NCBI GenBank assembly: GCA_963556145.1
Contig: OY744463.1
Coordinates: forward strand, 5,022,001 to 5,086,000
From: Hygrocybe punicea
Taxonomy: Eukaryota; Basidiomycota; Agaricomycetes; Agaricales; Hygrophoraceae
DNA: 64,000 nt
Direction of reading: 5' to 3'
Shown here: piece after piece, positions 50,908 through 63,271 of the stretch
Layout: each line of letters starts with the position of its first letter
Position numbering within the stretch: the first letter of the stretch is position 1
The notes under the pieces: model-generated
What the model was told of the DNA's origin: nothing
Database searches by the model: none
What the model saw: only the letters and a program-made list of their open reading frames with translations
Translations under genes and position numbers: made by a program

Positions 50908-51220
50908 TGTGGAGTTCACAATGATAATGGTAAGTCACCAGTCACTACTGGCGCCGGGAACTCAAGGCCACGTGCTGCGCTGAAAGTGAACCGAACATCA
51001 ACGTTGACATTGACAATGACAACGACATTGACAACGACATTGACAGGCCCTGAGTCACAGGCCGTACGACGAAATATCCCTTTGCATGAGAAATTTCTGT
51101 GGCTTGAAATCCAACAGTCAAGGTTATACTGATTTTTTATTAATAATAATTTGGACTGCGAAATAAATACTTGATTATTATGAAAATACCTAGTCTCGAA
51201 CCCAGCAGAAAATTCGTGGA
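50908..51220. other. Intergenic region with a small tandem repeat
   Basis: About 310 bp between the RhoGAP start and the left end of the next mobile element. A degenerate TTGACA-containing tandem run lies at about 51000-51048. It should contain the RhoGAP promoter. Nothing else is seen. Confidence 0.5.
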
Positions 51221-51387
51221 TTGGAAAATCCGGCTCTAACTCCGGCGATTACTACGGCGGCAGATGTGGCGGCATGTCACCGGAGTTGTAAATGATTGTA
51301 GTACGTAGCGCATGATAAACCTTATCGCCTTATCATCTTGCATCCAACCCTCCATCCCCTCTTGCGTCACCTCCCTCCCTCTAAGGC

Positions 51388-52384
51388 ATGCCGCACGATA
51401 TCAGTGGCGAGAACAAGTGCCCAACATGTCAGGCATTCCTCCCAGTCAAACTTGCGAAGCCAGGGACACAGGCACCCAACTCTGGCCACCACTACCTTCG
51501 TGTAAGTTGGATTGTACTTGGGTCCCGCTTTAGCTCACTTCCCATCCAAGTGCGCTTCATGTAAATACTTTTATGCCTTCCCACTTTCTGCGTCTGCCTC
51601 ACTCCCCTCCCTTACTGCACCCTTGCTGAGCCAACCGGCACTGTCCAGCACACGTGGTGCTGGTGACCGCTGCATCCATCCCAACTGTCGCAAGGCCTGC
51701 CATCGGACGTGCAACCGTCAGATGTGCAAACAAGATTGCATCTCCAATGGCGGCTGCCTCTGCCCTGGCCACAACCAATCCAGTCTCTCAGCACGACAAC
51801 AAGCAAAGCTACAGGTGCAGCCTCCTGCTATCACTACGCCCACTGTCCCTTCCACCTATCCCCAACTAAAACCATTCTTCGAATCAGAGTCTGACTGGGA
51901 GCAGCTGCGGTGGTCAGTGCCCTCTTCCTGGGAGGCACCTATCGAATCAGATGGGGAGAGCGAGCGTCAATTCCAGAAAGAGCTTCGCCAAGTCATGGAG
52001 ACATCTGTATCCCCAAATGTCCCTCTAGAGCCCACTGCTACTGCCTCCGTTTCCTCCTCTGACACACCCTGGGCTGCCTTTGAGCCATCGTGGATGAGCC
52101 CCCCAACGCCTACAACATGGGCAAGTGCCTCGTCATCGACCAATATGAGCACCCCAACGCCTACGACATGGGCGAGCACGCAGAACACAGCCCTTGGTGC
52201 CTTGTCATCGACCAATCCCCAGCCTGCCCCTGCTGTCCGCTGCAAACCAGTCATAACTAAGCAGATGTCTGACATATGGTTCCGCGAGTATGAGGACAAC
52301 ACGTCAGGCCTCAAGAAGAGGCCCAATGCACATCCTAGCACTTGTTTTGTAACTGAGTCAACGAAAATATTTTCATTCACATAA
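51388..52384 (+). CDS. GRF-type zinc finger protein, transposon A partner
   Basis: Exons 51388-51501 and 51551-52384 give 315 residues. The N-terminus carries CPTC, then about 25 residues later HHYLR and CASCKYFYAF, a pattern close to a GRF zinc finger. A second cysteine-rich cluster follows near residues 75-110 (CIHPNCRKACHRTCNRQMCKQDC, then GGCLCPGH). The C-terminal half is Ser/Thr/Pro-rich with a duplicated TPTTWAS unit and no domain. The stop lies only 14 bp from that of the CxC5/CxC6 gene on the other strand. A role in DNA binding for the transposon is an inference. Confidence 0.65.
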
Positions 52385-52398
52385 ATGAGTACATGGCA

Positions 52399-54640
52399 CT
52401 ACATAGAAACCTCAGAGGGTGCATGGCGAGGGTTATGGCCAGCAGCGGCCAAGGAAGCAACTGTGAGTGCATTCCGACGGCGGATCATTTCATCCAAAAA
52501 AAAATCATACTTTCTTGGTAACATCTCCCGGCACATTGAATGATATCCCCCCAGCCAAACGTTGGTCTGTTCTGCAATCGAGGTGTTGAAGAACCAGCTC
52601 CCATCATCACTCATGAGCTCCGGGTACATGGCTGGGTTGCAGTTCTGTTGGCAGAACGTGTGCGTGACCTTGTGCTTGTTGAGGAAGTGGAATACATCGA
52701 CGCACATCCCCATGTCATGAAAATATGGGTCTGACCGAGCCTGCTGCTTGGTGTCGCAGTTTGTGTCGTATATGAGGTGCTCCGGCTTGTGTGCACCTGG
52801 AACGGAAAAAGCATTCTTAACAAACGCCTGTCCCATCTTCAACCAAAGAAATCATTAGATACTGATCGATAGACTCACCAGAACATTGGACACCGCCTCG
52901 GCACCGAAGAATGTTGCACGAGCGAATATAATCCCACAAGGTCTCACCAATGTCTGCTCATTGTGTGTTCGTCGACGGCCAAATTGTGCTTTGATCTTGC
53001 GGTTGCCAAGTGCCGACTTGGATGACTCACAGGGCAGGACAGCCTCACTGTCAGCATCGCCTACACCAACAGAGCCCTGATTGGGTGCAACAAACATATG
53101 AACATCTTCGCCTTCAACCTCAAACCACCCAATGTTCTCTTCAAGATCGTCTGGCAAGGCACCAGTGCTCGCTGTGGAATCATTTGGATGGGAGACTCGG
53201 GCATGCTGGTAACGTTCCTTGAGCGTGAATGCCGCCTTACCACGCTCTGTATTGATCTTTTCCATCTTGCGATGCAATGGCATCGTACAGGTCTTTGATC
53301 CTACAACAACAGGGAGGATGCAATCACGTATGGCACAAATGTTGTGCTGTGCGAAGTGAGTGGTGCAATACCGATGGCAATTATTTTGAAGGGGTTCAAC
53401 ACAGCGGAACACAGCACAGCATGGACGGCCCATGCTGAGGCCATCACATACAATCGGTTGACACTTCCCTGTCGATGCTATCAGTGATGCATGGTTCATG
53501 TAGAGTACTTTCACTCACGATATGTGCCATCATCCACTTTGAACACACGCAGACATTTGTGACAATAGTGTGGCACCTCAAACTGGCTGTTGAGCACGAT
53601 CCGCTCGTTCCAGCCATCCATTGCATCGTTGAACCGATTGTGCTGAGACCCAGTGTGGGGGACCTGTAGCCGAGAGTGGTGTTGCAGGTGGTCTTCGAGG
53701 AGTGAGAGAATGAGGAATCCATCCCAGACGTGATCAGTTGTGAGCTTGCCGCCAAATTGCCAACCGGCACTTTCGAGATCGGCCTTCTCAGCCAGGGTCA
53801 TGTCGTACAGTCGGGAAGCATTGGTAGCAGAGAACCTACGAAAAGAAATGTGAGTAGGGTGGGAAGAAACTGACGGAAGCCAACTTACCAGCCAAGAACC
53901 ATCAGACCGACCCACATCTCCACTAACTTCCTCTGCACAAATTGGTGTTCCCCAACTTGTATGTAGTCTGGGACATTTTCGTAATAAGTACGCATGCCCT
54001 GGTGAACCGAATAGTTGTGGTGGTAGTTTGTGTTACAGTCTGCAAGTGCAAATTAGCGGTGGAAAAGTATCAACAGAGTGAGGCAGAACTTACCAGGGCA
54101 GAACAGGTGAATCGACCATGCAGGACAGACACCCCTTCCTATGGTGTAGCAAACAACTTGGCGCTGCTGTTCTTTCTTCAGAGGGATCTCTCGCGAGCAT
54201 CCCAGATTCGTACACATCTGACTGGGTGGATATAAAGTAAGTGCAGCTACAGGAAAAGTGTGAGTGAGATGAGGGTGAGTGCAGGAGTATTCAGGCGACT
54301 TACTGAGCCCAAGTTGCCATCCATACAGGTGATACAGGTCCTCATCTTCCTCCGAGACCAGACCACAAATTGGTGGTGAATCCCACACATCGTCCTTGAG
54401 TAGATCCCACAGAGGTTCCACAGCCAGAAGGGGTATCCCAATGGCCAGGCTCAGAAAGATTACGACCGCCTCTGGGAGGACATCAGGTGCACTATCAGTT
54501 GTCTGTGCAAGCGGTTGGGGAAGAAGGATATCACGCTTGAGGTGGGCAGCGAGGTGGATAAACGTGGTGAGCTGTTCGAGGTGAAGGTCGTGGAGAAGTG
54601 GTTGTTCACGCAATGCTTGCAGAACGTCGGCCAGCGCCAT
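52399..54640 (-). CDS. CxC5/CxC6 protein with transposase-like C-terminus
   Basis: The start at 54640 opens a long first exon (54640-54304); several further exons lead to the TAG at 52399-52401. Two cysteine clusters are visible: one with CTNLGCS, and further on CHKCLRVF, then GRPCCAVFRC, CAIRDC (CxC5 and CxC6 as described for KDZ transposons). The C-terminal part has spaced acidic residues in conserved settings: YDTNCD, GMCVDVFHF, CNP, and SIAEQTNVWLGGYHSMCREM. This resembles the RNase H-fold core of KDZ-group transposases, so the protein may itself be the transposase. No in-frame stop was noticed. It is about 650-700 residues long. Confidence 0.7.
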
Positions 54641-54864
54641 ACGGCAATGTTGGACGACTTAGCGTTGTGTCGAGGCTGACCACTCAGTGTTGTTTAAGCT
54701 CCGCCTCAAAGCAAAAGCGACCGCCGGACTAGCCGGATTGATCGCCGGAGTGTCAGCAGCCAGATTTTCCATTTCATGAATGTCCTTGAACCCAGACATT
54801 TTCACGATACCTCGGAGGAACCCGAGCGGAGTGCGAAAAACATTTGCGAGGTTATTGTGTACTT

Positions 54865-54973
54865 TGACTTTGAGTACAGCGGGTGTAGATCACCCATCAT
54901 GTGACCTCGACACGCAGAAAAATCTGTAATTAAAGTAGTACTAATAGACGCATCTTTACCACCTCCTGGAAAT
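54865..54973 (+). repeat. Inverted repeat of element B, left copy
   Basis: 109 bp, inverted relative to 60202-60310 with about two differences. The ATG of the DUF6589 gene (54972) lies at its inner end, so this repeat is expected to hold that gene's promoter and 5' UTR. Confidence 0.85.
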
Positions 54974-57629
54974 GTACAGACCTTCTGACAATGGCTCAGA
55001 CTCGGATACTCCTGACTTGGTTTCTGATACCAAGGAACCATTGTTCGGCACACATCAATGCATTCCAAGCTCAAACCCTCATCTTAGACACACAGAAAGC
55101 TGCTGGAATTTTCTTAAGGTCACTGGCAACATTGCGGATCGTGTCCTTCAAGTTCTCACTCTGATGGATTCACTGCATCTCAACCTCCCTTTGTTTCTCT
55201 GGGCCATTAGCTGGAATATTCCGGATCTCGTCTCAAATAATCGTGTCCGGTTTGCGAGGACTACACTTATGCTTAGTGACGAGCTTCCAGGAATCTTAGA
55301 AAACTGGCGTCAACCCCCTCGTTCTCATGGCCAAGGTATACGCACAAAGGCTGCAAGAACTGCAATGAATGACTGGGCACTGGAAACTATTTGCGAGACC
55401 TTGGATCACGAGCTGGAAGTTCTGAAGCCGACAATGCTCTTCCCTCAAGAGAACCTTTCTGAAGAGGCTCTGCTGGCCATTAGCTGGAATGGACTGATTC
55501 CGGTGGTCAAAAGCGAAGCACCAACAACATGGAAACTCTTTCACCATGCTCTCTGCACACTGAAGCAGCAACTAAAAAATAAACTCAAGAATCCCGATGC
55601 GGTCTCTTCCAGCTTCGTATCTTTGTCTTGCTTGTGTCTGACGATTCGCAGTTGCTAGGCGGCCCTTACCATGGTCTCCATGGCTTCACTATCCCGCTCG
55701 CACCATCACCGTAAGCTTGCGAAACTGCTGACAATATATTTCAAGAGCTGTGGACTTGCGGCTAAAGCTTTCGGTACCCTCCATGCCCTTGGGATTACTA
55801 TGAGTCAGAAGTGGGCTTACCGTGGCATTGAAAAGCTCTCTGAACTTGGCCGGACTGCCCTCTTGGAGGACATCAAAAAATATCCACGGTTTGGAACCCA
55901 CGACAACATCAACCTGCCATTTAGAGTGTACGAGCAACGACTCAATAATTGATCCCACTTCGATAGTGGCACAGCAGCAACTATCCTCGTTATCAAAGAT
56001 CTGAATGCTGTTCTTCCAAACAATCGTGCCTTCCAGGAACAGAGGGCACTTGGCGCAGTCAACACAATAAAATATAGTGATATTATAAAGCTCGAAAACA
56101 ACGCCAGTCCCCGTCTTAAGGCTTGCGCTATTCACCGTGTTCTTTCGATTTTAACAGCTGCACCAGACTTCAGTTTCGAAATGTATGCCCATAACGATCA
56201 TCTATTATTCGATCCTCCACCCCCTGGTGAACAGTTACCCGTCGGACTGGACCACATTACTTGCCAATACATGCTCAACACTGTTCATATCGAGGAAGCG
56301 TCCTATGGAGGCAATGATCGTGTACTCAGAGAATGGTGGCATCAACTCGAACTCGACTCACCTGAAAAGCAAAAGGACATCGGCAAAAAGCATATCATTA
56401 TCTGGGCTGGTGACCAACTCACTGTCTCGTGACTTCGAGGGCTTCAAAAGTTTCGTTACGATGATTTGAACTTGTTCGAACGCCTTGTGTTCCTCAAAGA
56501 AGTATTCGGCTGGTTTCACGCACAAATTGCTTTTGAACACTCACTTCATGCTCATTACTACGGCACTCAGCTTGGCTTTGGACTAGTTCAAGCCTTTGAT
56601 CTTCTCGACCGCAAAGGCCTTCATTCAGCGACAGTACAAGGAATGTTCCATCACCACCTTAAGGAAGGTTTAATCCACATCGCAGAGGCCCGCTTCCAAG
56701 ATCTCTGGTGCGTTGTGGCCAAGGTCGAAACACTTGAAGAGTTACAGAACCGCTCTCCAGAAGAACTTTACACGCTAGCAGCCGGAATCATGAAGGATCA
56801 TGCATGCACTTTCGCCCTACAAAATATTGCACTCAAGAAATCTCACAAGGACGAACTCCGTTACCAGTCAACCCAGATGGTTCATGATCTCCTCGATTAC
56901 CTCGAGTTTGATGAGTCTATGAAAGTTGGGGACATCAGACATATACAAGATCTACTTCCACAACTGCTTTTCCGATTTGAAGGCGGAACAAACAAGAATT
57001 ATGCGCTTGAGATACTTGAGTTACTACAAGGTTTGCATCGAGAGTGGCCTCCAGATCTCAGGTGAGATTATTCAGTTCACATACTCGACACTTACTGGGA
57101 ATGTTCCATTAGAACATACATTCTCAAATACTGCTGGTTAGCAAATACCACTGGGAAACAGGATGGGTTTCACCCTATCGATCTTCTTCAAGAACACAAT
57201 GTCCGTGACATCAAGGTGAGGTCCTGTTAATACACCTATGCCATCATGTACTTCTTGGAGTACATATTTCAGCACACCTTTGCCGCCACTGGGCCTTACG
57301 CTGACTGGGACTATATTGGCAAATCTTCGGCATCCATACCTTGTCAACGGAAAGTTAAGGACCACGTCGAGAATGATATCAATCATTTTCACCGTGGAAA
57401 AACACATTCTTCACCCAGAAAAGAAGAGGATCTCACTCATCTACAGACCTCATACAAGGCATCAAAAGTCCACATCAACAAGCCCAGGCGGAAGCTTGAT
57501 ACAAAGGACAAGGTACCGGATGTTCTAGTGATAGGATCAGAGAGGGCTAAATTGACGAAGACGATTGAGAAATGGGCTGCAAACAGGGTATCCGAATGGT
57601 CAAAAAGTGAAGACTGGACAGATTATTAA
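54972..57629 (+). pseudogene. DUF6589 domain protein with two in-frame TGA codons
   Basis: The frame runs from ATG 54972 through a long exon, an intron at about 55602-55661, then 55662 onward, a split near 57061-57111 and another intron (57215-57274) to TAA at 57627-57629. The protein matches the Agaricomycete DUF6589 family: NLPLFLWAISWNIPDLVSNNRVRFART, FGTHDNINLPFRVY, WAGDQLTVS, QLGFGLVQAFDLLDRKGLHSA, HIAEARFQDLWCVVA, LELLQGLHREWPPDLR, KVKDHVENDINHFHRGK. TGA interrupts it at 55950-55952 and 56430-56432; at the latter the family has Arg. Apart from these the frame is open, so decay is recent. Function of the family is unknown. Confidence 0.75.
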
Positions 57630-57677
57630 AGTACTTGTTGTATTGCTTTCGTTGCTATGGAATAGACTACATTGTTT

Positions 57678-60171
57678 CTAGTTATTGGGAGGTATGTAAG
57701 GATTTTGGAATTGAAATGGAAGCGATTGGTACATGGGCACCGGGTAGAGTGGATACAGCGGGAGGGGTGATGGCTGAATAGGATATTGTAAATGGTAGCA
57801 TGCGTGTTCGGGTGGATATTGAGAAATCAGTTGGGGAGGAATTGGAAAAACCGGGTAAACCATTTGAAGGGCAGGACGAGAAGATGCTGCTGCCACCCCA
57901 TGCTGAGAGGATGCTGCTGCTTTACGTTGGGCAGTCGCCTCACGGGCTTGTGCAAGACGTTCCTCGTTGCGCTTGAGTTTCTTTTCTGCTGTGATTTTCG
58001 CCCGCTTAGCCTTGTTGTCTGCTTTTTTTTGCTTGTTTGCCTCATGCCACACATTGTCAATAGGTTCCAAAATATGAAGAATCACCTCGCCACACTCATC
58101 TGTCCAATCCCACTCTGGAATCTCAGTCTTGATGTCATCAGGTGTCTTGAGCCGAGCTCTTGTTGCGAATTTAGTGAGAACAGCATCGGGAAGCAGCACA
58201 GTTGGCCCCCATATGCAGTCCCCGAAGTCTGTTTGCCATGTTTTCATCTGCCAGTTTGTCAATGCGTTTCGACAAGATTCCAATCTTTCCTTTCGATGAC
58301 CACCTAGGTGGCGAGATCGCTTCGCAACCTGTTCTGTATCCACCCCAGTGTTGACTCCAGCTTGTTCGTCATCATTGCTCTCGTCACCCTCTTGTGTTTC
58401 TTGCACCACTGCACCGCTCATGACGGCAACTGGCACCTCCCGTGAATTGATGCGCTTGTGGAGCAACAGTATCTCAGCTTCGTCAGTCGTAAGGTCTTTA
58501 CCATCAGCTGATTTCTTGATAATGCAAGCATCGCAACATGGGACAGTGAGTTCTGTGAATGATTAGTTATGGCTACAGCTTGAAAAAAGGAAACTCACCA
58601 GTTGTACGTGGAGGGTTATTGAAGTAAGCATTGGACACTACTTGTCTACACTCAACAGCTTCTATCCACCTTCGCATCCCCTCCTCGACCTTCTTTTGAT
58701 ATCTCGTGTCGGCACTGCCAATTTGACTTGTGTCACCTTCGTCTTCGCCATCCTCTTCATTTTCATCATCACCACCATCTTGAGCTTCTGTTTCTCCAGT
58801 TTTTTTGGTTGGTTTTTTTAATTTGAACACTGAGGGCTCGACTAAAAGAACTACGGTTGCAGGATCTCCAGACCTTCCAGCATGGCCAGAACGTTGAGTC
58901 CAAATGGAGAGCAAAGTTGGGACCATATATTGGATCACACGAGAAATATTCGGAATGTCCATGCCCTGTAATTAGAAAACATGTAAGGCGGTATTAAAGA
59001 CTATTATTAAAAGACACATACCATACCAGCTACTTCAGTTGCACAAAGGATATCTGTCTCTCCGTCCCTAAAATCCTTCATGATCTTTCGTCTAGCACGT
59101 TTCGTTCGTCCAGCATGTAAAAAATTGATTCTTTCTCATAATTCTTCAGGAACAAGGTTGCGAATGTGCTTGCACCCTCTATGTGCAAGATCGCAGGTGT
59201 TGAAGAAAACGATGGTCTTTATGAGCGGTTTTGCAGGCTGAGCTTTGGCCTCATTGACAGCGAAGTTCAAAGCATCGAGGTCAGCAGCTGCGCCACGCAT
59301 GCAGCAAATGATGGGCATGATATTGGGTCGATCGTTGCCAAGATTTACTGTGAAGGTATGAGACTCCGAGAGGCACAACTTGAGTTGAATATCCTTGAGG
59401 ATGTGAGGCGGCATTGTTGCAGATGTAGCTAGGATAGGAACTGAATTGGGTACAAAAGATCATAGCTTGCTGGGGTCATTGTATTTCTTTTGAAAGTTTT
59501 CACCCCATTGTGAGATACAATGTGCTTCGTCGACTACAATGGCTAAGACATTTCTTGTAAATTCTGGTGTATGCATGAGTTTTGAAAACTTCAGGTGTTC
59601 AAGGCACATTTCGGGAGAAGTGAGGAGGACACAGTGCTTTCCGTCTTCAATTTTCTGATCACACGACATTAATGCAAGCATCATTCAGAAGAGAGATTTA
59701 CAAGATACCTTGTGAAGTTGTTGGCTATAATTGTCACCATTGACTGCTGTTGCGGTAAGGCTGAATTTCTTGAACCTTTCAGCCTTGATTGAAATATTCC
59801 GGAATCAATAATTCAGTATGCTATTTTTTATAAGGGCTCACCTGTTCAAACTCCAGCTCATTAAGAGGTGAAATAACAATTACCATTTTGTCCTTCACTT
59901 CGTCCAAAAGGAGAGGCATCCCAAAGGGCATAGTTTTGCCCGAGCCCGTTCCAGCAATAACAACGCAGTCCAAACTGAGCATAAGAGCTTCGGTAATGTC
60001 GATCTGCCAGTCATAAGGTGCTTTCCCATTGAAAGCTGCCGTGAATTTTGCTTGAATAGACTGACAAGTGGTCGTCCAATCGTAGTTCCGAGATGATACT
60101 GCAGTGTCATGGGCAAGCTTGAGAACGTCAGACTCCAATTCCAATGTGGGTTGTGAGGAGTCTGAGGACAT
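57678..60171 (-). pseudogene. RecQ-type DNA helicase with in-frame TGA codons
   Basis: The ATG at 60171 starts an N-terminus leading to Walker A AGTGSGKT (motif I), VISPLNELEFEQ, LLTSPEM, VVDEAHCISQWG (a DEAH box with the RecQ-type CISQWG), LATSATMPP, LHAGRTKRARR, ATEVAGMGMDIPNI and QRSGHAGRSGD (motif VI with Gly-His instead of Gly-Arg). An acidic segment near 58690-58800 and a C-terminal part with CCDACI, a basic coiled region and a Pro/Tyr-rich end reach TAG near 57678. TGA interrupts the frame at 59462-59460 and 59138-59136, where related helicases have Arg. Short introns occur throughout. It is convergent with the DUF6589 gene, 48 bp apart. Confidence 0.75.
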
Positions 60172-60201
60172 ATATTAAAGGGAGACCAGGGAAGTGTTGA
60201 T

Positions 60202-60310
60202 ATTTCCAGGAGGTGGTAAAGACGCGTCTATTAGTACTACTTTAATTACAGATTTTTCTGCGTGTCGAGGTCACATGATGGGTGATCTACACCTGCTGTA
60301 CTCAAAGTCA
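60202..60310 (-). repeat. Inverted repeat of element B, right copy
   Basis: 109 bp, inverted copy of 54865-54973. The RecQ-type gene starts at 60171, 31 bp inside it on the minus strand, so the repeat probably serves as its promoter too. Confidence 0.85.
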
Positions 60311-60485
60311 CCAGACATTCTATCGCACAAGCATTCACTGTTTTTCGCAGTCCACTTAGAATCCTGCCGGATTCTTCTGCCATGCGAGAATGTCGGGTAC
60401 GAGACTAGAAAATACCACCAACACGTCAACGTGACTCCAGACTGGTTAGGTTGATTTTCGAATTCCCAATGAAACGGCAATGTTA

Positions 60486-63271
60486 CAGTCGAACCCCTCT
60501 TAACCCATACCTCTGATAACCCATACTCTCTTATACCCCATAGGATTTCGGAGTTACCAAGTTGGTATGCAGGAAGACTTGACCCATAACCCATACTCTC
60601 AGATACCCCATAACCCATAAGATTGGCCGCATCCACATTCGACCAATCCACGTGGCAAAGCGTGACAAAACGAAGAAAATCTATAGGTTAATTTCACAGG
60701 TCTCTGAGCAAAAAATGAAAACGATGGATATTTTTTGATTTGTATTTTTTAATTTTTCATCATTTTCAATTTTTAGCAAAAACTAAAATGAAAATGTTTT
60801 TTGATATATCATTGTCACAATTTTTAGCCATGCACAAGCGGAAACCAAATCCAATGTCCCGAGTTGCAAATCTGGGCCTGAAGGCTGTCAAGAAACACAA
60901 GTGAGCTTCAGGTAATGAGGATAAGGAGAATGTAAGCCTTGTTGAGCGTGAAAAACAAATCCTGACTATCTACTTGGCACATAGATCCCCCCTGCTGAAA
61001 AGTTGTCTCAAATGACAGTGGGAACATTGCAGTTGGGTCCCGAGAAGACAATTCAGCTGTCAAGATGACACTGCATCAAGAATACCATTCATATCACGAA
61101 GATGGGGCCAGAAATGAGGTTCTTGAAGTGATAACGACATCCCCAGAAAATCCTGGCGAAGAAATGTGTGAAGATGATGGAGATCGTGAGAATATTGATA
61201 ACGTGGGGTGGGAATCCCTAGAGACGGCCAGTGATTGCGAGAGGGAACGCACCAACAGCACTCGAGATTCAGCATCACACAGCTGAAAACCTTTCCCACC
61301 TGACAAGGATGCTGCACGATTGGCGCTTTCAGATATTAAGTTGCTGCTGTGGCCACCACGGAAGTCAGGATGTGGATACAAAGATGCTGGTTTGGACTCC
61401 CTGCTCCAAACACGACTACAACAGATGTGGTCCTTATTATGGGTCTACACCGATGAATCACCATTAAACAAAGTTGTATCTGGTCAAAATGATGCAAGAT
61501 GGTTGTCGGCTTCTCTTCATGTCGCACACACAGCCAGATTGGGCATCTATGCAGTGCGGAAGTTGCGGGAGTGGACAAAGGCATATATAATTGATTGTAC
61601 CAACTTACCTGCGAACCCATATGGGGCATGGTCGAAATCTTGGCTCGATGACAAGGATTTAGTGCAGGAAATACAACTGCACTTGCAAGGAATTGGGCCA
61701 TATGTCCGCGCTCAAGATATCTGCGACTACCTTGACCAGCCTGAAGTGAAAGCATGGCTCAAACTGAAGAAGACAATCCATTTAGCAACAGCGCAGCAGT
61801 GGATAAAAAAAGTGGGCTACCGCTGGACACTGAAACCAAGTGGCCAGTTCGAAGATGGCCATGAACGTGCAGATGTTCTCTGGTATTGGCAAAGTGTTTT
61901 TCTTCCAAGGTGGGCCAGCATTGAGACTCAGTTGCGAGACTGGAAGGATCAGAATCCAGAAGAGGAGATGGAGGAAGAGGTGAAAGAGGACGACACACCA
62001 ATTTTTGGCCCACGACAGCTGGTCATTGTATGGTTTCACGATGAATCCACTTTTTATGCCAACGACCGGCGCAGGAAGAGATGGGTTCACAATTCTGAGA
62101 AAGCGGTGCCACGGCTGAAAGGGGAGGGAGCTTCTTTGATGGTTGCAGACTTCGTTTCAGCTGATTTTGGGTGGCTGCGCTCTCCAGATGGCCAAGAGTT
62201 GGCAAGGGTTCTCTTCAGGGCTGGGAAGAACCGTGATGGGTACTTCACAAATGACGATATTTTGGCACATTCCCACAAAGCCATGGACATCCTCAAGAAA
62301 TATTATCCAGAGCACAAGCACATTTTGGTCTTTGACAATGCTCCCACTCACCTCAAACGTGCGGCTGATGCTCTGTCTGCCCGAAAAATGCCCAAAGGAA
62401 CTTCTTCACCCAACAAGAACTGGGGAGTTGACATAACAAAGGTGGCATCTGACGGATCACCTGTGTATGATGCCCATGGCAAACTTGTCAAAGTTTGACG
62501 AAAAATGGGTGATGGCCAATTACCTGATGGAACTCCTCAGCCATTGTATTTCCTTGATGGGCATGTTCATGCTGGACTGTTCAAAGGCATGGCTGTAATT
62601 CTCCAGGAGCGTGGACTGATTGAGGAATCAAGGTTGAAAGCGGAGTGTCACAATTTCAAATGTCCTCCTGGCGAAACAAGATGCTGCTGTTGGCGGGTCC
62701 TATTCAATCAGCCAGACTTTGCCTCTGTTGAGTCTTGTCTGGAAATTGAGTGTCGATCACAGGGATTTGAAGTCATCTTCCTTCCAAAATTTCATTGCGA
62801 GCTAAACTTCATTGAACAGTGTTGGGGCTACGCCAAACGGATCTATAGGCAGTTTCCAGCATCATCTCAGGAAGCAGATCTGGAGAAGAATGTTATTGCA
62901 GCATTGGATGCTGTCCCTCTTACATCCATGAGATGGTGTGTGATAATGTTTTTGTGCTCTCTGGATTGCATCTCACTTCCAAAATGAAGATATGCCTGGC
63001 GATCTCATCATTTTATGATGTTTTATAGCATTGGACCCAGTGGAAAACTTGCAGCATGGGCTTCCAAAAAATATAGGAGCCATCGAGTAATTACAGATAA
63101 CATATTGAAGGAGATTGAAGCCGCCAAACTTACTTTACATTAGTAACTTTTAGTTAACTGATTTATTAGTCATCCTATAACCCAATTCTGGTCTTGATGA
63201 CTGTAATGTCACACTTTGGTCACATCCACATGGATTGGTTGAGTGTGGATGCAGCCAATCTTAGCTTTCAT
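60486..63271 (+). mobile_element. Tc1/mariner-like DNA transposon, right end uncertain
   Basis: A TA dinucleotide (60484-60485) is followed by CAGTCGAACCCCTCTTAACC, a start typical of pogo/Tigger-like mariner ends. Internal copies of ACCCATA follow. A 37-bp subterminal inverted repeat pairs 60619-60655 with 63226-63262. I did not find a right terminus matching the left one; a MITE sits at 63298, so the right end may be lost or rearranged. The transposase gene lies between. Confidence 0.5.
60830..63143 (+). pseudogene. DDE transposase (Tc1/mariner-like) with several TGA stops
   Basis: A basic N-terminus (MHKRKPNPMSRVANLG) starts at 60830. The main frame runs from about 61038 to 62935, then after an intron (62936-62989) from 62990 to TAG at 63141-63143. 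Catalytic residues are visible: Asp in WFHDESTFY, Asp in LVFDNAPTH, and Glu in LNFIEQCWGYAKR. The C-terminus LAAWASKKYRSHRV is typical of the Agaricomycete family I recall. TGA interrupts the frames at 60902, 61284, 62496 and across the last splice site. These all fit CGA-to-TGA changes, so the gene is inactive but young. Confidence 0.8.

Follow-up and report, generated by a model that had tools for sequence, protein, structure and literature searches.

What kind of locus is formed by a DUF6589 gene and a RecQ-type helicase gene that face each other between inverted repeats, and is it a mobile element? The window, by which we mean the whole stretch of 64,000 nucleotides of the Hygrocybe punicea genome analysed here, comes from a 92.2-Mb assembly, in which it spans 5.02-5.09 Mb of a contig 8.24 Mb long; the nearest named relatives of its proteins are from Agaricomycetes. 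A preliminary description of the locus had suggested a mobile element whose DUF6589 protein might be the missing recombinase. Our analysis points the same way: we give a probability of about 0.9 to the reading that this is a DNA transposon carrying two genes between long terminal inverted repeats (5'-TAGTCTCG...), with DUF6589 as a DDE-type transposase, and that the window copy has decayed. The analysis shows a mobile unit with defined ends and 9-bp duplications, a conserved convergent gene pair, and a predicted fold that bears a triad.

The DUF6589 (PF20231) gene, which encodes the probable DDE transposase, occupies 54972-57629 on the plus strand with its ATG at 54972, and the helicase gene (DEAD and Helicase_C domains with a CCDxC cluster) occupies 57678-60171 on the minus strand with its ATG at 60171. 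The stop codon of the former ends at 57629 and that of the latter begins at 57678, so the two are convergent and separated by 48 bp. Three open frames match DUF6589/PF20231 (E 9.1e-26, 8.1e-50 and 5.8e-06, the last below the Pfam cut-off), the facing frames match DEAD (4.6e-08) and Helicase_C (0.0012, below the Pfam cut-off), and the nearest solved structures to a homologous helicase exon of the same genome (L055) are WRN, BLM, RecQ, RECQ5 and RECQ1. Starts, spacing and identities are thus as first described. Both genes carry in-frame stops in conserved coding stretches, at 55950-55952 and 56430-56432 in the DUF6589 gene, besides probable introns, and at least at 59136-59138 in the helicase gene; these were judged by eye from open-frame boundaries against homologues, with the letters checked. 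With both genes interrupted by stops and its left end broken, the window copy is, on its sequence, dead.

The 109-nt inner inverted repeat reported just upstream of both starts was confirmed (arms 54865-54973 and 60202-60310, 98% complementary), as was the diverged homology farther out, which amounts to 27 nt at 78%. The arms reach the DUF6589 start codon and end about 30 nt short of the helicase start codon, and therefore each gene probably has its promoter within its inner arm.

The outer bounds first proposed, 54785 and 60403, had to be revised. Alignment of the ends of related copies gave a common terminus, 5'-TAGTCTCG(A/T)ACC, and the right end of the window copy has this terminus at 60407, where the right terminal inverted repeat (60202-60407, minus strand) ends in CGAGACTA. 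At the 54785 edge, the terminus TAGTCTCG and a target duplication were sought and neither was present. The stretch that ends at about 54787 has counterparts (98-99% over 480 nt) at two other genomic locations, and partial ones at additional locations. In the three that were examined the sequence continues differently past 54787, which indicates that an unrelated element is inserted in the left terminal repeat. A 17-mer predicted from the right flank (the 9-bp duplication GAAAATACC followed by TAGTCTCG) was then sought left of 54790 and matched exactly at 51182, the next best match being 14/17. The transposon thus extends over 51191-60407 with a perfect 9-bp duplication, GAAAATACC, on both sides (51182-51190, matching the prediction exactly, and 60408-60416), and position 54785 marks the scar of the nested element. 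The left terminal inverted repeat is split: its outer 15 nt, TAGTCTCGAACCCAG (51191-51205, plus strand), form the end common to other copies, and the remainder, including the inner arm, lies at 54788-54973 (plus strand). Between the two parts sits the nested element of 3,582 bp (51206-54787), outside the transposon proper and flanked by its own 8-bp duplication, GAACCCAG, at 51198-51205 and 54788-54795. It contains CxC5 and CxC6 clusters on the minus strand, both of which Pfam associates with KDZ transposases, and it is probably young since 480 nt of its right end are found at 98-99% in two other places.

Beyond the right end, a 27-nt direct repeat in two copies (93%), ATAACCCATACTCTC..., is found at 60516-60612. 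In the adjoining region 61287-62987, open frames match DDE_3 (Tc1/IS630-like) weakly, at scores below the Pfam cut-off, and a frame that resembles them by eye sits inside a 15.3-kb copy of the transposon on C2.

Copies of the ends of the window element recur elsewhere in the genome, and for this reason the inverted repeat is unlikely to have arisen by chance. Mobility was assessed with the C6 copy of 6,669 bp, which carries both genes and is inserted in a repeat. Forty scored places match each of its flanks, and ten where both flanks abut were fetched. In 10/10 of these empty sites the target, CTGATTTTG, occurs once, and at the filled site it occurs twice. The comparison of filled and empty alleles proposed in the preliminary description therefore supports mobility through the C6 copy; the window copy has single-copy flanks, and the assembly holds no second full-length match for its true left or right flank that could serve as an empty site. 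A 9-bp duplication borders seven of 12 distinct copies, the window copy included (six perfect, one 8/9), and the copies with a duplication have ends reading 5'-TAGTCTCG. A scan of ends for duplications of 8, 9 or 10 bp in 13 sequences gave matches in six, all of 9 bp (five perfect, one 8/9); for four of these (C6, C1, C2 and C35:2201399) the scan was dependent, their duplications having been readable beforehand. The C2 copy is represented twice among the 13 sequences; counted with the window copy, the distinct copies number 12. No end pair qualified in the other five copies, and for several of them the stretch examined showed a single end or no end at all. Random end words gave 32 matches in 3,900 scans, with words overlapping the true ends left in. 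L009, L014, and L015 with L079 were inspected for single ends only and stand outside the 12-copy count.

Several other copies illustrate the range of forms in the family. L009 (G000:C35:519859-521087) is about 1.2 kb long and retains the two inner arms and the beginning of each gene, but not the middle; judged by this structure it is an internally deleted, non-autonomous copy, and its right outer end is lost. A 3,149-bp copy at G000:C1:3559252-3562400 (L077, L078) has ends that match and is flanked by a perfect duplication of 9 bp. In the 15.3-kb C2 copy (G000:C2:1082327-1097646; L013, L076) the DUF6589 gene is split by about 10 kb of extra DNA, whose open frames resemble other mobile elements by eye, and a reading of this DNA as cargo was dropped. 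The pairs at G000:C33:1293355-1296912 and C40:5221945-5225502 score almost alike for DUF6589 and for the helicase, and their matched frames are free of stops; they possibly represent a recent duplication.

The fold prediction suggested for DUF6589 returned an RNase H-like transposase. The predicted structure, like those of the hAT, P-element and RAG transposases, has an RNase H-like core with a large helical insertion, and a conserved acidic triad placed from homologues (D261, D430 and E675) falls on this fold. The Foldseek TM-scores were low, which we counted against the transposase reading. At residues 462-465 DUF6589 has GxxH where hAT/P-type proteins have C/DxxH, and conserved cysteines occupy three columns only at >=50% of sequences (alignment A1). 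No Pfam hAT, P or MULE domain was found in the 51 DUF6589 proteins scanned, a PDB sequence search with one DUF6589 protein gave 0 matches, and one with the 51-protein profile gave three chance-level matches (best E 0.17). The 58 pattern matches in viral contigs and the 59 in prokaryotic ones included no confirmed DUF6589 relative, and a search of a limited collection of papers found none on DUF6589 and a single, irrelevant one for PF20231. DUF6589 is very probably the element's transposase, the recombinase that had been missing.

Outside the 109-nt arms, the two ends of the window copy differ from each other, and their types are exchanged relative to C6. In 40-column windows starting at 0, 20 and 40, the DUF6589-side end of the window copy agrees with the helicase-side end of C6 at 82-97%, and the reverse pairing, its helicase-side end against the DUF6589-side end of C6, reaches 93-97%; like-with-like comparison gives 45-70%. 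By eye, the C35 relative also shows the C6 arrangement on the DUF6589 side, and C7 and C41:3652, whose ends are shortened, show it in part. On that side C2 and C34, which are more distant, have the opposite end type, and C2 has it at both ends. The simplest reading seems to be that recombination between its own arms inverted the interior of the window copy. Such recombination would also account for the near identity of the window's inner arms, whereas those of C6 are less alike (68-93%). The target duplication of the window copy is intact, and promoters located in both arms would probably still work after the flip.

We also asked whether other copies carry the same gene pair, as the preliminary description had recommended. 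At least 103 matches to PF20231 in the genome merged into at least 71 loci, and at least 33 and at least 89 matches to the two helicase probes merged into at least 39 loci, all lower bounds as the best candidates only were scored. Twenty-nine of the 39 helicase loci have DUF6589 within 15 kb (26 convergent, 3 tandem, 0 divergent); when loci were placed at random along a single 92.2-Mb line, the mean over 2,000 trials was 1.0 and the highest count 6. An earlier count with one 132-aa helicase exon probe (23/29 paired, 22 convergent) was superseded when the longer probe was added. The preliminary description would have taken the unit as accidental had its genes mostly stood apart or its repeat occurred without them, and part of this is seen: 41/71 DUF6589 loci lack a detected helicase within 15 kb, 10/39 helicase loci lack DUF6589, and short derivatives without intact genes exist, alongside the paired loci and the other copies that carry both genes. 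Such unpaired loci are what a decaying transposon family would show, and a separate, helicase-less DUF6589 lineage may exist as well. Over the 11 pairs for which sequences of both genes were available, distances in one gene follow those in the other (Mantel r 0.886, 0/20,000), with identity down to about 50%. In other Agaricomycetes, 14 of 32 named DUF6589 entries come from a contig equal in length to one that carries a helicase of that species, where a crude assumption of 60-Mb genomes predicts about 1.3; the same contig does not mean adjacent. The 32 are entries whose species is also in the helicase list (best 120 of 301 and of 252). Consecutive locus tags for the two genes occur only in Paxillus involutus as far as names among the matches listed go, and no fusion of the two domains was found among the best 120 of 301 and best 120 of 252.

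The nearest known kind of element is AcademH, and the present element appears to work like it and may belong to it. Transposases of the Academ superfamily carry a cysteine-rich zinc finger. AcademH was reportedly described by Kojima in 2020 within this superfamily. That the element is an AcademH, with DUF6589 as the Pfam name of the AcademH transposase, is a somewhat favoured possibility, and one that bears on novelty and leaves the mechanism as it is. Duplications of AcademH are 9 or 10 bp and those of AcademX 3 or 4 in the consulted part of PMC10045372, which agrees with the 9 bp found here. Excerpts of PMC10799480 give DEAD and Helicase_C for AcademH and KolobokH and report AcademH from Basidiomycota; the present helicase has both domains, so by description the two systems share a transposase with a helicase, the duplication length, the helicase domains and the host group. 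Some features may weigh against membership. DUF6589 has three conserved cysteine columns, and a finger like that of Academ is not seen in it. Its predicted fold is nearest to hAT/P, with GxxH at the motif position, whereas Academ is absent from the C/DxxH superfamily list in the portion of PMC9587614 that covers it. AcademH is, moreover, low-copy in the PMC10799480 excerpts, in contrast to the at least 71 DUF6589 loci, in many diverged families, found here.

Other superfamilies agree less well. KolobokH also combines a transposase with a RecQ helicase in fungi, but the Kolobok duplication in the available text of PMC9587614 is TTAA, 4 bp, whereas ours are 9 bp and none has TTAA, and on this ground KolobokH was rejected. 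The same text places the KolobokH helicase downstream of the transposase domain, whereas ours is on the opposite strand, as reported for Kolobok-1_CCri. The predicted RNase H-like core with its large helical insertion is shared with hAT (Hermes) and P elements. The usual hAT duplication is 8 bp, with 5-7 bp in known variants (PMC12730594, in part); membership fails on the 9 bp found here, and the missing Pfam hAT/P domain and GxxH in place of C/DxxH also differ. Long terminal repeats characterise MuDR/MULE elements, too, but no Pfam MULE domain was detected in the 51 DUF6589 proteins scanned, and the partner is a RecQ helicase. Our 9 bp falls within the IS256/MuDR range of 4-10 bp quoted in the same part of PMC10045372. 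A tentative proposal is that DUF6589 elements form a superfamily of their own, abundant in mushrooms, with a hAT/P/RAG-like transposase bearing GxxH, a RecQ partner and 9-bp joining acquired independently of AcademH, and terminal repeats that would act as facing promoters and allow the interior to flip without loss of the target duplication.

It is rather unlikely, in our assessment, that DUF6589 alone moves the element and that the helicase is a co-travelling accessory, for repair or counter-silencing, dispensable for transposition. The 41 DUF6589 loci without a detected helicase would fit such an arrangement, as would the accessory genes that differ among Kolobok lineages (PMC9587614, in excerpt), but decayed helicases would escape the probes, and the 26 convergent loci and the parallel divergence over 11 pairs argue for a useful role. 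A Helitron-like scheme, in which the helicase does the moving and DUF6589 is a passenger, is very improbable and was rejected. Rolling-circle insertion leaves neither terminal inverted repeats nor target duplications, whereas the present element has long inverted repeats and 9-bp target duplications; its helicase is RecQ-like, and the predicted fold of DUF6589 is transposase-like. Helitrons do have a helicase beside an HUH nuclease (excerpts of PMC12730594). Scarcely credible, and likewise rejected, is a RecQ helicase gene of host or subtelomeric origin that happens to neighbour an unrelated gene, with the inverted repeat an accident. Fungi do have subtelomeric RecQ families (PMC4522978, in part), but this reading is contradicted by the recurrent pairing, the common ends, the empty sites and the position of the window on its contig.

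Under the two-gene transposon reading, DUF6589 would most likely bind the terminal repeats and pair both ends, its D-D-E centre would cut at TAGTCTCG, and the 3' ends would be joined to target strands 9 bp apart, with repair producing the 9-bp duplication. The RecQ-type helicase, whose gene lies on the opposite strand behind the other arm, most likely unwinds DNA during the reaction, either at the ends or during repair of the donor and target gaps. Movement may be by cut-and-paste rather than by copying. In its later history, the window copy acquired stops in both genes and received the element inserted in its left end, and its interior would have been inverted through its own arms.

This element offers a testable system for a small open question, the reason why RecQ-type helicases are found in several lineages of transposons. 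If DUF6589 is the AcademH transposase, a Pfam family would be linked to a Repbase lineage; if not, the elements would represent a further superfamily. DUF6589 is annotated as of 'unknown function' in many mushroom proteomes, and reading it as a transposase would mean that such genes are transposon copies, not host genes, and that gene counts could be cleaned of them.
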